Assembly: GCF_000312045.1 (NCBI RefSeq)
Contig: NZ_HE978634.1
Coordinates: 1 to 64,000 of the forward strand
Origin: Noviherbaspirillum massiliense JC206
GTDB taxonomy: Bacteria; Pseudomonadota; Gammaproteobacteria; Burkholderiales; Burkholderiaceae_D
Direction: 5' to 3'
Length of the DNA: 64,000 nt
The notes beneath the pieces are model-generated. The model was not told the DNA's origin and ran no database searches. It worked only from the letters and a program-made list of their open reading frames with translations. This document shows positions 1-5,010 of this stretch, piece after piece. A program made the translations under genes and the position numbers. Each line of letters starts with the position of its first letter. Position 1 is the stretch's first letter.

Positions 1-56
1 CTTAAGTTGAACGACGCCGCGCTGGCGCGGTGTTCGTGCCGAACGACGTGTTAGAT
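1..56 (-). other. attC recombination site of cassette 2 (partial)
   Basis: Read on the minus strand, this begins with the core ATCTAAC (56 to 50), fitting RYYYAAC, and contains an imperfect palindrome whose centre is CCGCGC-TG-GCGCGG (17-30). It is flanked by GAAC (9-12) and GTTC (32-35). The distal GTTRRRY core should lie just beyond the window edge. The stop codon of the cassette 2 ORF (TAA, 53-51) lies inside the core, as is common in cassettes. attC sites are folded as single strands and recombined by IntI. Confidence 0.75.
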
Positions 57-407
57 TGCATGACGCACCTTCGCGTGTTCATAGCCGACAATGGGGACTG
101 CCGTCAGTATGAAGGCTCCATGAGCCGCCTGCTCATGCTCAATATTGCGCACTGCCCGTTCGTTGTTTTGCCGTGCTTCATCGATTGTGCACAGTGAATT
201 GATGCCGTCCCAAATGCAATCGATGCGTGCCTCAAAACCAGGTGAGTGCCAGATGCCACCTTCCACGCGAACAATCACCAATCCGTAACTCGCAGCCTGA
301 GTGCATACAACACGTGCCGCTGCAGGGGTGAGCTTCAACCACGAGCTTCCCTCCATTTCGAAGAATAGCTCCGGTTTGTCGTGAAGTGAGGCGCGGTCGA
401 CACTCAT
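51..407 (-). CDS. Integron cassette 2 protein, unknown function (118 aa)
   Basis: This small soluble protein has no signal peptide or membrane segment. It contains a notable GGIWHSPGFEARIDCIWDG stretch at about residues 50-68, rich in Trp and acidic residues. I do not recognise the family. The ATG sits 6 bases after the attC core GTTAGAT (417-411), and the TAA stop falls within the core of the next attC, so the ORF fills its cassette almost exactly. No convincing Shine-Dalgarno sequence precedes it. Expression probably depends on an upstream cassette promoter. Toxin-immunity or phage-defence roles are common among cassette genes, but nothing here proves one. Confidence 0.75.
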   Translation of the reverse strand: MSVDRASLHDKPELFFEMEGSSWLKLTPAAARVVCTQAASYGLVIVRVEGGIWHSPGFEARIDCIWDGINSLCTIDEARQNNERAVRNIEHEQAAHGAFILTAVPIVGYEHAKVRHAI

Positions 408-410
408 GCT

Positions 411-477
411 ATCTAACGATTTAAATGACCCGCGCCGAAGGCGTCGGTGTCGAATGGCGAGTTAAGTTCGCATACAG
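411..477 (-). other. attC recombination site between cassettes 1 and 2
   Basis: Minus-strand reading starts at ACTTAAC (477 to 471, fits RYYYAAC) and ends at GTTAGAT (417 to 411, fits GTTRRRY). Between them lies an imperfect palindrome centred on CCGACGCC-TTC-GGCGCGG, with an unpaired base in one arm, like the extrahelical bases that set strand choice in attC sites. Length is about 67 bp, inside the usual 57-141 bp range. Strand exchange is expected between G417 and T416. Confidence 0.85.
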
Positions 478-865
478 GGGATACACGCACACAATCGCCT
501 TGAAAGGTACCATCATCATATTGTGATGACAAAAAAAGCTCATTGATATCGGCAGATAATCGCAGCACCTGATGGCCTTTATCGACATAGTCAAAGCAGA
601 TGTGTTTTCCGACCAATCCTGTCCAGTAGGAATGCGCACTGACATCGATGTGTTTTGTTACCCCGCCAGGCGAGAAAAATGACTCAGACCGGACCTCAAT
701 TGAGTATTGAAGCGGCTCGTTCCCCCACGAGACAAATTGTGATGTTCCATCAGCCATGTCCAGACGTACTTGCCCGTCGAGCTGATGCCATCCTGATGCC
801 TCGTCGGCAGCAAAATACAGCTCCTCGAAGGGAAGCAGCTCGTAAGTAACGTGGCTCAGTATCAT
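413..865 (-). CDS. Integron cassette 1 protein, unknown function (150 aa)
   Basis: This is the first cassette after attI. The product is probably cytosolic, acidic and aromatic-rich, with a stretch WGNEPLQYSIEV around residues 47-58 and DGTFQGDCVRVSP near 117-129. I do not recognise the family. The frame runs through the whole attC. About the last 21 residues are encoded by the attC palindrome, and the TAG stop lies in the GTTAGAT core, so its bases belong to the neighbouring cassette. In an excised circle the junction would read CGT-TAA, so a stop would be kept. No clear Shine-Dalgarno sequence is present; ATG lies 5 bases past the attI core. Confidence 0.75.
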   Translation of the reverse strand: MILSHVTYELLPFEELYFAADEASGWHQLDGQVRLDMADGTSQFVSWGNEPLQYSIEVRSESFFSPGGVTKHIDVSAHSYWTGLVGKHICFDYVDKGHQVLRLSADINELFLSSQYDDGTFQGDCVRVSPVCELNSPFDTDAFGAGHLNR

Positions 866-950
866 GCGAATTTAACTTGTTATAAATCGCAAAATGCCAA
901 TTTAACATGGCGAAGTGTCGTTTAACACGGCGATGTTGAATTAACGAAAA
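866..950 (-). other. attI-like integration site with repeated core motifs
   Basis: Read leftward on the minus strand, the spacer between intI and cassette 1 carries GTTAAAC (926-920), GTTAAAT (906-900) and GTTAAAT (876-870), all fitting the GTTRRRY core. The last sits in ATAACAAGTTAAAT, resembling the simple site of attI1 (AAAACAAAGTTAGGC, recalled). The two outer copies share a flank (TCGCCGTGTTAAA and TCGCCATGTTAAA), matching the idea of IntI-binding direct repeats such as DR1 and DR2. Insertion is expected at G876/T875. Confidence 0.75.
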
Positions 951-954
951 TGGC

Positions 955-983
955 TTGCCAGCTTGGGTTGTCATTTATATACT
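955..983 (+). promoter_or_regulatory. Predicted intI promoter (PintI)
   Basis: The -35 candidate TTGCCA (955-960) and -10 candidate TATACT (978-983) are 17 bp apart, each one mismatch from consensus. The predicted start is near base 990, coincident with the intI ATG. The LexA box overlaps the -10 and start region. Confidence 0.6.
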
Positions 984-1000
984 GTATTTATGTACAGTAT
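979..1000. promoter_or_regulatory. LexA (SOS) box over the intI promoter
   Basis: The core CTGTATTTATGTACAG (982-997) fits the proteobacterial LexA consensus CTGT-N8-ACAG. The perfect arms extend to ATACTGTA (979-986) and TACAGTAT (993-1000). Its position over the -10 and predicted transcription start predicts repression until DNA damage, as described for other integron integrases. Confidence 0.85.
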
Positions 1001-1997
1001 TAACAAAAACACGAAATACGACAAGCCACCTTTGGTCTCGTCCAAACTACTGGATCAGCTTCGCGAGCGGCTGCGCTACCTGCATTACAGCCTACAGACA
1101 GAAAAGAATTATGTGTATTGGGTGCGCTGGTTTATCCGCTGGCATGGCATCCGCCATCCGAAAGACATGGGCGGCAAGGAGGTGGAAGCTTTTCTGTCCA
1201 TGCTTGCTAATGAACGGAAGGCAGCTCCCTCTACTCACCGGCAGGCATTGAGTGCCCTGCTGTTTCTCTACAAAGAAGTGTTGGACATGGAGTTGCCTTG
1301 GATGCAGGACATCGGGCGCCCCATTCCAACCAAACGGATTCCCGTCGTCCTGACACCTGCGGAAGTCAAACAGGTTTTGGGATTGATGGATGGAGTTGCC
1401 GGTTTGCTGGCACGCTTGATTTATGGCACTGGCTTGCGCCTGCGGGAAGGCTTGTCATTGCGGGTAAAGGACATTGATTTCGATCGACGTGTAATCATTG
1501 TCCGCGAAGGGAAAGGCGGCAAGGACCGTGCGGTCATGCTGCCGGAGGTATTGAAGCCCGCTCTGAAGGAACAGCTCGCGTACGCGCGTGCAGTATGGGA
1601 AGCGGATCGGCAAGCCAACTTTCCGGGCGTGTATTTGCCGCATGCCCTGGAAGTCAAATATCCTCGGGCCGGACAGAGCTGGGCATGGCAATGGGTGTTT
1701 CCGTCGCCTACCGTGTCGCGCGATCCCCAAACCGGAATCATTCGGCGTCACTATTTGTATCCCGAACGCTTGCAGCGCGCGCTCAAGCATGCCGCTATTC
1801 ACGCAGGCATTCAAAAACAGGTCAGCGTCCATATCCTGCGGCATTCATTTGCCACGCACTTGCTGCAAAGCGGGACTGACATCCGGACAGTGCAGGAACT
1901 CCTTGGCCACAGCGACGTGAGCACCACGATGATTTATACGCATGTGCTCAAGATAGCAGCTGGAACAACGAAGAGTCCGCTCGATACCCTGTCTTGA
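990..1997 (+). CDS. intI: Integron integrase IntI (tyrosine recombinase)
   Basis: IntI catalyses site-specific recombination between attI and attC to insert, excise and shuffle cassettes. From ATG 990 the protein is 335 aa, close to IntI1 (337). Catalytic residues are all present: R150 (GTGLR), H281 and R284 ([10 protein letters not shown]), H307 ([10 protein letters not shown]) and the nucleophile Y316 (IYTHVL). Residues about 217-237 ([21 protein letters not shown]) are the integron-specific insertion absent from XerC/D. A TTG start at 963 would add 9 residues but lies upstream of the predicted promoter start. ATG 990 sits inside the LexA box, so the mRNA may be leaderless. No frameshift or lost catalytic residue is seen, so it is probably active. 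Confidence 0.95.
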
Positions 1998-2007
1998 TTC
2001 ATGGCCT

Positions 2008-2030
2008 GAACGATAGATCAGCCATCGTTC
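2008..2030. terminator. Short hairpin between convergent intI and xerD
   Basis: GAACGAT (2008-2014) pairs with ATCGTTC (2024-2030), with a 9-nt loop. It has no T-tract on either side and overlaps the xerD stop codon, so it is at best a weak terminator. Confidence 0.3.
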
Positions 2031-2934
2031 ATCCGCGCGGATGATGCTTCTCGTGCAGCTTCTTCAAACGCTCGCGCGCCACATGCGTATAAATCTGCGT
2101 GGTCGAAATGTCGGCATGGCCGAGCAGCAGTTGCACCACGCGCAGGTCGGCGCCGTGGTTCAGCAAATGCGTGGCAAAGGCATGGCGCAAGGTGTGCGGC
2201 GACATGGGCGCATTGATGCCGGCCTTGAGCGCGTATTTCTTGATCAGGGTCCAGAACATCTGGCGCGTCATAGCGCCCCCGCGGCCGGTGACGAACAGGG
2301 CATCGTCGGCCTGGCCCCTGAGGATGGCGGGGCGTGCCTGCTTGAGGTAGCGCTCGATCCAGCTGCGTGCTTCCTCGCCGAAAGGGACGAGGCGAGTCTT
2401 GCTGCCCTTGCCGGTGATGCGCAGCACGCCTTCGTTCATGCCGAGTTCGATCGACTTGAGCAGCACCAGTTCCGACACCCGCAAGCCGCTGGCATACATC
2501 AATTCCAGCATGGTGCGATCGCGCAGGCCGAGGGGGGTGTCCACATCGGGTGCGGCCAGCAGCGCTTCCACCTGCGCCTCGCTCAGGGTTTTCGGATGGC
2601 GCGGCGGCTGCTTTGCCGATTTCAGCCTGAGGCAGGGATCAGCGCTGATCTTGTTCTGGCGCAGTGCGAGCTGATAGAAGCGCTTGAAGGCGGCAAGACG
2701 ACGATTGGCCGAACTGGCCTTGGTGCTGGCGTGCTTGGCGGCGAAGTAGGCATTCAGGTCGGCCGCCTCGGCCTGGTGCAGGGTCTTGCCGCGCTCGGCT
2801 TCCAGCCATCGCGCGAACAGGGTCATGTCGCGCCGGTAGGCATCGAGCGAGTTCTTCGCCAGCCCGTCTTCCAGCCAGAGCGTGTCGCAGAATTCGTCGA
2901 TCTGGCCCTGGCTGGCAAGTACTGCTTCTGTCAT
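2029..2934 (-). CDS. xerD: Site-specific tyrosine recombinase XerD
   Basis: XerD partners XerC at dif to resolve chromosome dimers under FtsK control. At 301 aa it is normal length. An N-terminal SAM-like DNA-binding domain spans about residues 8-95 and the catalytic domain about 115-290. Catalytic residues R152, K176, H247, R250, H273 and Y282 are all in place (GLRVSEL, HTLRHAFATHLL, LLGHADISTTQIYTHV). It lacks the IntI-specific insertion, which separates it from the neighbouring integrase. Its start overlaps the ogt stop by 4 bases, so the two are co-transcribed in the order ogt-xerD. It converges on intI. Confidence 0.96.
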   Translation of the reverse strand: MTEAVLASQGQIDEFCDTLWLEDGLAKNSLDAYRRDMTLFARWLEAERGKTLHQAEAADLNAYFAAKHASTKASSANRRLAAFKRFYQLALRQNKISADPCLRLKSAKQPPRHPKTLSEAQVEALLAAPDVDTPLGLRDRTMLELMYASGLRVSELVLLKSIELGMNEGVLRITGKGSKTRLVPFGEEARSWIERYLKQARPAILRGQADDALFVTGRGGAMTRQMFWTLIKKYALKAGINAPMSPHTLRHAFATHLLNHGADLRVVQLLLGHADISTTQIYTHVARERLKKLHEKHHPRG

Positions 2935-3431
2935 CGGTATCCCTCGACGCCTTCATGGGCGAGCAGCCAGCGCTTGACGCCGAGATGAAAGCCGGTCTCA
3001 TCGTCATGGTTGGCAAAGCCGCCAAGGCCGCCGGATGCGGTGACGCGGTGGCAGGGAATCACGAGGGGGAACCAGTTGGCGCCGCAAGCTTGGCCGACGG
3101 CGCGCGGGGCGGAACGAAGCATGCGCGCGACTGCGCCGTAAGTCAGCACTTCACCACGCGGAATGGAAGAAATGACATCCCAGACCCTGCGTTGGAAGGA
3201 AGTACCCACCTCGGCCAACGGCAAGTCGAATCGGAAGTCGGGTTGCGTGAAGTACTGTTCGAGCTGCCGCGCCGCTTGTTCGGCCAGCGGGTCCGTAGGT
3301 GCCTTTTCATCAAAATGCGGCGGCAGGTACACCAGTTCGCGCAGCAGGCCGGCTTCGGTCCGGATGCCGACAGCGCCGAACGGCGCCTTGACGATGGCGG
3401 AAAACAGGTCGCTGCGGGAGGAAGTGTTCAT
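2931..3431 (-). CDS. ogt: Methylated-DNA--protein-cysteine methyltransferase
   Basis: This enzyme transfers O6-alkyl groups from guanine to its own active-site cysteine, a suicide repair reaction in the cytoplasm. The active-site PCHRV motif lies near residue 127, preceded by the helix-turn-helix region (TYGAVARML). At 166 aa from ATG 3431 it matches the Ogt family. The frame is open further upstream to 3605, but that extension does not resemble the family and crosses terminator-like hairpins. It overlaps xerD by 4 bases. A minus-strand hairpin with a T-rich tail lies only about 12 bases upstream of the start (3442-3480), which is odd. Confidence 0.9.
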   Translation of the reverse strand: MNTSSRSDLFSAIVKAPFGAVGIRTEAGLLRELVYLPPHFDEKAPTDPLAEQAARQLEQYFTQPDFRFDLPLAEVGTSFQRRVWDVISSIPRGEVLTYGAVARMLRSAPRAVGQACGANWFPLVIPCHRVTASGGLGGFANHDDETGFHLGVKRWLLAHEGVEGYR

Positions 3432-3441
3432 GGCGATAGGA

Positions 3442-3480
3442 TAAAACAAAACCTGCCGGCCATGACAGCCCGGACAGGTT
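3442..3480 (-). terminator. Terminator-like hairpin just upstream of ogt
   Basis: On the minus strand AACCTG-T-CCGG (3480-3470) pairs with CCGG-C-AGGTT (3459-3450), followed by TTTTGTTTTAT. It has the form of an intrinsic terminator but ends about 12 bases before the ogt ATG. It could be a leader attenuator or the end of upstream read-through. Confidence 0.5.
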
Positions 3481-3502
3481 CTGCGCTGCATCCGGACGCA
3501 CA

Positions 3503-3530
3503 AAATAAAAAAGCGCATCTCACGACGCGC
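3503..3530 (-). terminator. Intrinsic terminator downstream of the TRAP operon
   Basis: On the minus strand GCGCGTC (3530-3524), loop GTGA, GATGCGC (3519-3513) with one G-U pair is followed by TTTTTTATTTT. This is a good intrinsic terminator for transcripts coming from dctPQM. Confidence 0.7.
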
Positions 3531-3556
3531 CTCAAATTGCTGCATGTGTGTCCGGT

Positions 3557-3598
3557 GCCGCTTGTGTGGTTTGCAGACCGAGTCTGCAGCGGCTTTTT
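3557..3598 (+). terminator. Plus-strand hairpin with T5 tail, no gene upstream
   Basis: TGCAGAC (3572-3578), loop CGA, GTCTGCA (3582-3588) is enclosed by the outer arms GCCGCT (3557-3562) and AGCGGC (3588-3593), followed by TTTTT (3594-3598). No plus-strand gene reads into it, so its role is unclear. Confidence 0.4.
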
Positions 3599-3619
3599 GG
3601 AACACACGTCTCCATTGCG

Positions 3620-3635
3620 GACGGTATCAATACCG
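3620..3635. repeat. Inverted repeat in the ogt-dctM spacer
   Basis: ACGGTAT-CA-ATACCGT is a near-perfect 16-bp palindrome. It could be an operator or part of a structured transcript. No regulator is recognisable from the sequence. Confidence 0.4.
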
Positions 3636-3668
3636 TTTCTCGTCCCCTCCAATATCCTCCTTCAACGG

Positions 3669-3700
3669 AAGGCCGCAGCCTTTTGCAGGTCTGCGGCCTT
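3669..3700. terminator. Hairpin after dctM
   Basis: A perfect 10-bp stem, AAGGCCGCAG (3669-3678) with CTGCGGCCTT (3691-3700), lies 30 bases past the dctM stop. The T-tract is poor. A 16-bp palindrome TCATTTTATAAAATGA (3710-3725) lies between it and dctM. Probably part of the operon end or 3' mRNA protection. Confidence 0.5.
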
Positions 3701-3729
3701 AAAGTGGACTCATTTTATAAAATGAATTT

Positions 3730-5010
3730 TCACTTGTAAATCATGTTCGGCAGCCAGAGCGAAATCTGGGGCACGTAGGTGATCAGCAGCAGGAACACGA
3801 CCATCGTCAGCAGCCACGGCATGACTGCCACCGTTAGTTCGGTAATGCCCATCTTGGTGATGCCCGAAGCCACGTACAGATTCAGGCCCACCGGCGGATG
3901 GCACATGCCGACTTCCATGTTCACCACGATCAGGATACCGAAATGGATCGGATCGATGCCGAGTTTCATTGCCACCGGGAACAGAATCGGCGCCATGATC
4001 AGAACGATTGACGACGGTTCCATCACATTACCGGCGAGCAACAACAGGATATTGACCACCAGCAGGAAGCCGATCACGCCCAAGCCCCGATCCGTGATGA
4101 ATTGCGCCATCGCCTGCGGGATGTTTTCGCTAGTCATCAGGAACGAGAAAAGCACGGCATTGGTGATGATATACAGCAGCATGGCCGACATCGATGCCGA
4201 ATCCAGCAGGACTTTCGACACCTGCTTCAAGCTCATGTCCTTGTAGACGAACACGGCGATGAAGAAGGCGTAGACGGCCGACATGGCGGCGGCTTCGGTC
4301 GGCGTAAAGGCGCCGGAATAAATGCCGCCCATGACGATCACGATCAGCAGCAGGCCCCAGGCGCTCTGGCGGAAAGCGCGGAAACGCTCACCCCAGGATG
4401 CCTTCGGCAGACGCGGATAGTTGTTCTTGCGTGCCAGGAACCAGGTTGTCATTCCGAGCATGACCGCCAGCATCACGCCCGGCACGACACCAGCCATGAA
4501 CAGCTTGCCCACCGAGGTGTTGGTCGAGACCGAATACATCACCATCACGATCGATGGCGGGATCAGGATGCCGAGCGCGCCCGAAGTAGTAATCACACCC
4601 GCGCCGAAGCGATTCGGGAAGCCCTGCTTCACCATGGCGGGCAGCAGGATCGATCCGATCGCCACCACCGTTGCCGGACTGGAGCCCGAGACCGCGGCAA
4701 ACAGGGCGCAGGCCAGTACGCCTGCCAGCGCCAGACCGCCGTGCCAGTGACCGACCATCGAGGTTGCGAAGTTGATCATCCGGCGCGCTACGCCACCATG
4801 CGTCAGGAAGTTCCCGGCCAGGATGAAGAACGGAATCGCCATGATCTCGAAGTTCTCGATCCCGGTAAAGAGCTTCAAGGCGACCGATTCGATCGGTACC
4901 TGGGTCATGGTAAACAGGAAGGTCAATACCGTCAGGCCGAGCGAAATCGAGATCGGCATGCCAGTCAGCATCAGCACGATCAGCAGAATGAAGATAATGG
5001 CGGCGTTCAT
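3730..5010 (-). CDS. dctM: TRAP transporter large permease subunit DctM
   Basis: DctM is the sodium-coupled transport channel of a tripartite ATP-independent periplasmic transporter in the inner membrane, working with DctQ and the binding protein DctP. At 426 aa it shows a dozen or so hydrophobic segments and the family's Gly/Pro-rich membrane loops (for example GILIPPSIVMVMY, about residues 149-161, and MCHPPVGLNLYVASG near 374-388). Its ATG overlaps the dctQ stop by 4 bases, showing translational coupling. Hairpins follow its 3' end. Substrate is inferred to be C4-dicarboxylates because of the adjacent DctS/DctR pair. Confidence 0.93.
   Translation of the reverse strand: MNAAIIFILLIVLMLTGMPISISLGLTVLTFLFTMTQVPIESVALKLFTGIENFEIMAIPFFILAGNFLTHGGVARRMINFATSMVGHWHGGLALAGVLACALFAAVSGSSPATVVAIGSILLPAMVKQGFPNRFGAGVITTSGALGILIPPSIVMVMYSVSTNTSVGKLFMAGVVPGVMLAVMLGMTTWFLARKNNYPRLPKASWGERFRAFRQSAWGLLLIVIVMGGIYSGAFTPTEAAAMSAVYAFFIAVFVYKDMSLKQVSKVLLDSASMSAMLLYIITNAVLFSFLMTSENIPQAMAQFITDRGLGVIGFLLVVNILLLLAGNVMEPSSIVLIMAPILFPVAMKLGIDPIHFGILIVVNMEVGMCHPPVGLNLYVASGITKMGITELTVAVMPWLLTMVVFLLLITYVPQISLWLPNMIYK

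Follow-up and report, generated by a model that had tools for sequence, protein, structure and literature searches.

The window analysed here is a stretch of 64,000 nucleotides whose first base is also the first of contig C1 in the 4.19 Mb, three-contig assembly of Noviherbaspirillum massiliense JC206. Its left edge codes for an integron integrase, IntI_A, accompanied by recombination sites, two cassette open reading frames (ORFs) and a neighbouring recombinase gene:

1..56, minus strand: attC2, truncated at model position 51 of 59 by the contig edge (20 bits, E 0.051)
51..407, minus strand: cassette 2 ORF, 118 aa, colicin E5 immunity-like (PF11480, 49.6 bits, cut-off 25)
411..467, minus strand: attC1, complete (covariance model 66 bits, E 2.9e-12 over 64 kb)
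413..865, minus strand: cassette 1 ORF, 150 aa, without Pfam or NCBIfam match
871..934, minus strand: attI, crossover core GTT at 876-874, assigned by recurrence beside IntI_A-type genes and by the attI model
955..983, plus strand: promoter-like site of intI_A, TTGCCA-17-TATACT, from a promoter scan and weak alone
982..997, no strand assigned: LexA-box-like site CTGT-N8-ACAG, 8/8 half-site bases matching
990..1997, plus strand: intI_A, integron integrase, 335 aa (profile match, structure alignment, tree)
1000..1023, minus strand: distal head element, 24 nt, at -147 to -124 from the crossover, within the first intI codons
2029-2934, minus strand: XerD gene next to intI_A, above the XerD cut-off

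The IntI_A protein passes the cut-offs of TIGR02249 (443 bits, cut-off 265) and NF011946 (477 bits, cut-off 435), and its residues 18-333 of 335 align with the solved integrase 2a3v. It has the catalytic-box motifs, searched with patterns that we take to describe these boxes, in agreement with the original prediction of an intact intI with its catalytic residues. No other intact integrase of its type was found in the genome. A tree of 12 IntI and 6 Xer sequences separates the two groups with support 100/100, and in profile searches the protein lies far under the Xer family cut-offs; the grouping with XerC/D that had been named as the outcome against an integron is not what the tree gives. Class 1 integrons have the IntI family in common with the window integron. 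IntI_A is 64.3% identical over 322 aa to class 1 IntI1, well short of the near-identity that marks the class, so the window integron is not class 1; its place on a chromosomal contig and its different attI also set it apart. Beyond this 64% identity, nothing here bears on the origin of class 1 integrons, to which the original prediction had tied the locus. An integron-type integrase 67.6% identical to IntI_A, annotated as XerD, is encoded by a 5.8 kb mobilizable plasmid of Enterobacter cloacae (OW969603.1).

Translation of intI_A most likely starts at the ATG at 990 rather than at TTG 963 of the listed ORF, since the resulting MYSINK start is shared with contig C178 of genome G012. The promoter scan yields two promoter-like sites in the intI region against 1.2 expected by shuffling. 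The LexA-box-like site, compared with what is presumably the LexA consensus, overlaps both the promoter-like site and the initiation codon of intI. By analogy with known integrons, we infer that intI_A would be under SOS control. Rfam searches gave no match at E <= 1 in window positions 1-4000 and a single tRNA at gathering score over the entire window.

The attI was identified, from sequence only, by its recurrence beside IntI_A-type genes. This site recovers the attI-like region of the original prediction, and the one complete attC and part of a second are likewise found. The attC model, whose training set includes attC1 and not attC2, gives no other site in the 64-kb window. Folding of the attC1 strand is not clearly better than that of shuffles (z -1.04; 29 of 200 shuffles equally good). 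Cassette 1 has a single relative besides itself among 369 genomes of the class. It is 29% identical and lies, in a genome of another family (G559), between two same-strand attC matches (35.3 and 31.3 bits), which provides independent support for cassette 1 as a gene cassette. Both cassette ORFs had been put down as of unknown function; this stands for cassette 1, which has no family match, and not for cassette 2, whose product resembles colicin E5 immunity proteins (ImmE5), a family matched in the own genome alone in a search over 369 genomes. Among 29 ORFs that lie at attC or attI sites of the genome or close by, Pfam assigns 4 to immunity-protein families (ImmE5, Barstar at 24.4 bits with a cut-off of 23.4, CdiI_3 and SMI1_KNR4), a raw count over 2 + 10 + 10 + 7 ORFs, some without a detected attC boundary.

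With an integron-type recombinase, an attI beside intI from which the cassettes point away, and at least one attC (the R and L boxes behind attI being those of the training-set site attC1), positions 1-1997 read as part of a complete chromosomal integron, of which they hold the head and the first two cassettes. The original prediction of such an integron with little-known cassettes is thus borne out. There is hardly any doubt about the set of parts seen in the sequence, namely an intact IntI, a LexA-box-like site, an attI, attC cassettes and, beyond the view of the original prediction, six further attI matches in the genome.

As the window starts where the contig starts, the array cannot be followed leftward, where the original prediction saw room for many more new genes. 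C1 ends after the two window cassettes, inside an attC, and both ends of this 3.15 Mb contig break off within an attC just ahead of the crossover core, at model position 51 of 59. The attC of the right end lies at L018:19952-20000, where the whole-genome scan gave model positions 14-48. End and start of C1 have no exact overlap of 10 or more bases. Judging from these two ends, they may mark an assembly branch at cassette junctions, with repeated or mixed cassettes. The arrays of two separate heads run off the two ends of C1.

A blastn search of the own genome with the window attI finds five further places, four at 86-95% identity over 39-59 bases and the fifth at 88% over 34. The attI model, a sequence-only model built from 26 attI sites, gives seven matches, five at 63-69 bits and two decayed:

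C1:871 (the window): 63-69 bits, intI intact, two attC matches, one cut
C1:3151704: 63-69 bits, no intI detected, one attC match, cut
C2:272699: 63-69 bits, intI broken, three attC matches
C2:860362: 63-69 bits, intI broken, one attC match
C2:899571: 63-69 bits, no intI detected, four attC matches
C2:944983: 41 bits, decayed, no intI detected, no attC match listed
C2:895935: 25 bits, decayed, no intI detected, no attC match listed

Five of the seven sites are training sequences of the attI model, so the scores of the first five heads are high by construction; the blastn matches are the independent evidence. The attC matches behind five of the seven heads run on the cassette strand. No intI protein homology is detected within 2.5 kb on the head side at four heads, C1:3151704 and C2:899571 among them. 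At C1:3151704 the DNA profile extends weakly to -272, perhaps a remnant of intI. Five of the seven heads have a crossover core with at most one mismatch, a biased count since the core is the basis of detection. The anatomy of the window locus together with this multi-head architecture is very probable. Amid the attC sites of the C2:899571 head lies the gene of a COQ7-family protein (127 bits; C2:900960-901502, L022:10961-11503).

A second intact integrase, IntI_B (C2:288667), belongs to an IntI clade separate from that of IntI_A and is followed by an array of its own, with three attC matches. The attI model matches none of seven loci of this clade, IntI_B included, and each of the three near-intact IntI_A-type genes that were compared (window, G012 and G030) has attI of the window type next to it; the site therefore looks cognate to IntI_A. 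The IntI_B integron, a second complete one, spans C2:288601-292660 (L020:4602-8661), with a different attI, at least three attC matches and cassettes that include those for DUF6228 and RibD_C proteins.

In the family, attI matches number 45 in 19 of the 145 genomes sampled, with nine in G030, eight in G078, seven in the own genome (G000) and four in G061. No integron integrase passes the cut-off in G078 or in G061, the latter having a fragment; in G030 one does, interrupted by an internal stop, and there are fragments besides. Two of 300 genomes sampled from the order match attI at E <= 1e-4, the own genome and one of the same family. The exact attI pattern occurs in 12 stretches of genome contigs and in none of viral contigs. 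The titles of the 12 carry an Oxalobacteraceae genus or family name or 'Burkholderiales', the titled genera being, as we assume, members of Oxalobacteraceae. The attI head is recognisable across genera within Oxalobacteraceae. The G030 heads on contigs C52 and C106 share their left flank too, and that on C88 does so partly (L111, L113 and L110), which looks like duplication of longer segments, although no mechanism for it was found.

What stays of the head after intI is lost was assessed on 38 heads, comprising 32 of the 45 attI-model matches (all heads of G000, G030, G061 and G078 and four single ones) and six from the blastn and exact pattern scans. Homology to intI lies upstream of eight heads and of none of the other 30, over 1.5 to 2.5 kb searched and less at contig ends. 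In many of the intI-less heads the similarity extends as far as roughly -150 relative to the crossover, where the first intI codons used to be. Because the loci had been found through the attI core, it was the sequence outside the core that was tested, with weight matrices trained on the eight intI-bearing loci alone (one of which, G010a, gave a misplaced LexA instance) and then applied to the full set of 30 others. In 17 of the 30 the distal 24-nt element is retained (p <= 0.01), at -144 to -148, the LexA box in six, and in a control window (-330 to -260) the element appears in none. Paired by locus, the element occurs without the box 11 times and the box without the element never (p 0.001), and a perfect LexA box is found at 5/8 intI-bearing versus 1/30 other loci (p 6e-4). 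These retention figures come from all 30 integrase-less loci, not from the 27 of 38 heads chosen for having the element, and since some loci are related or duplicated, the counts are not as independent as they seem.

Since the distal element is kept more often than the LexA box, and never seen in the control window, part of the integron head seems to stay under constraint once the integrase of the locus has been lost. Reading the shared stop of homology near -160 as the boundary of a mobile unit was also considered and dropped: the LexA box would lie within such a unit but is not retained to the same degree, which agrees better with an extended head under constraint. By genome, the element is retained in 3/4 of these heads in G000, 6/8 in G030, 3/4 in G061, 0/8 in G078 and 5/6 in the others. 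G078 fits a loss of constraint without integrase, whereas G061, which likewise lacks an integrase scoring above the cut-off, is at odds with dependence on a live enzyme. Perfect cores are not clearly commoner where an integrase over the cut-off lies beside attI (9/17 in G000, G012 and G030 versus 6/19 in other G genomes).

With six further docking sites, four of them without a detected integrase beside, one enzyme might serve several docks. As in known integrons, DNA damage would lift LexA repression of intI, IntI would join the attC of a cassette to attI, and cassettes next to attI would be expressed; in addition, IntI_A might act in trans on the other heads of the genome. Such service in trans by IntI_A is conceivable but less likely than not. 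The complete scheme is a distributed integron in which one SOS-controlled integrase supplies several genomic docks, cassettes are captured and expressed at many places, the head (element and attI) is kept by selection, and the arrangement recurs across Oxalobacteraceae. It appears rather unlikely in its entirety.

The extra heads could instead be relics retained for a Pc promoter that drives the fixed cassette genes behind them, recombination there having ended. This comes close to an even chance and is at least as likely as service in trans by IntI_A. The distal element indeed lies upstream of attI, roughly at the Pc position of other integrons, it persists in G061, and behind the heads at C1:3151704 and C2:899571 the reading frame of the first cassette is uninterrupted. 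A promoter so far upstream would need no crossover core, however, yet five of the seven own cores are preserved as described above, with the same detection bias; nor is a cassette-ward promoter found at scan threshold in window positions 400-1100. It is improbable that the window simply shows the start of a long superintegron array left of base 1, the other heads being unimportant. Large integron arrays are known in Vibrio (PMC11551772) and the array here leaves the contig inside an attC, but the readable heads of this type hold one to four attC matches, with contig ends truncating two of the counts. A XerC/D-type recombinase flanked by chance palindromes, a reading encouraged by the adjoining XerD gene and the weak fold of attC1, can be dismissed with practical certainty given the tree, the Xer scores and the cassette 1 relative between attC matches in an unrelated genome.

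Taken alone, the window locus is a further complete integron; the heads of the same type across the genome, most without integrase, are the variant part, and the ingredients are known. As in the sedentary chromosomal integrons of Xanthomonas and Vibrio, intI is transcribed away from short attC cassettes with attI between. For Xanthomonas a single ancestral platform is described in which intI was inactivated repeatedly, while CALINs, clusters of attC sites lacking integrase, occupy other loci (PMC12444791). That platform is ilvD-linked and the passages concerned give no shared attI at the CALINs (PMC12444791), whereas the own genome has several heads with the same attI at separate loci, most lacking an integrase. 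CALINs also consist of attC cassettes without intI nearby, and a functional IntI can reportedly mobilise them in trans (PMC12444791). The default finder setting for a CALIN is at least two attC; C2:899571 has four and C1:3151704 one, cut. Here, unlike in a CALIN, the head remains, with attI and distal element recognisable, so that origin by intI loss can be read locus by locus. Origins proposed for CALINs are off-target insertion, intI loss and rearrangement (PMC8618304).

The delta-attI cassettes of mobile integrons likewise provide more than one attI-derived site per integrase, and such sites are reported as functional with IntI1 (PMC12901181). There the site ends a cassette within an array, whereas here whole heads occupy separate chromosomal loci. 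About a third of intI genes are given as pseudogenes, and over a fifth of the lineages with integrons as having two or more intI (PMC2426708), and 22% of genomes with IntI are stated to have more than one (PMC9024848). In a study of Treponema, attI sites are called less conserved than attC (PMC3607928). Non-class 1 attI sites are presented as poorly described and are not sought by the standard finder (PMC9024848), so that integrase-less arrays are typed by attC alone. No title or abstract reporting several attI heads of one type per genome was found in the open-access literature searched.

Should the docks be served in trans, integron evolution would have the genome, not the locus, as its unit. 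A family-wide attI profile can tell arrays that arose by intI loss, in which attI is kept, from off-target insertions, which have no attI. The own genome displays both patterns, arrays with attI kept and attC sites without one. The latter are six more attC matches, from 57 down to 23 bits with the lowest doubtful, at C1:1810498, C1:2979922, C2:931488, C1:708365 and, two of them, C1:2517252-2517773; the attI model finds nothing around them in the stretches searched. The lone attC near C1:1810498 is perhaps an off-target cassette insertion. It lies in the region C1:1810234-1811013 (L027:10235-11014) between ORFs for Barstar-like and CdiI_3 immunity proteins.
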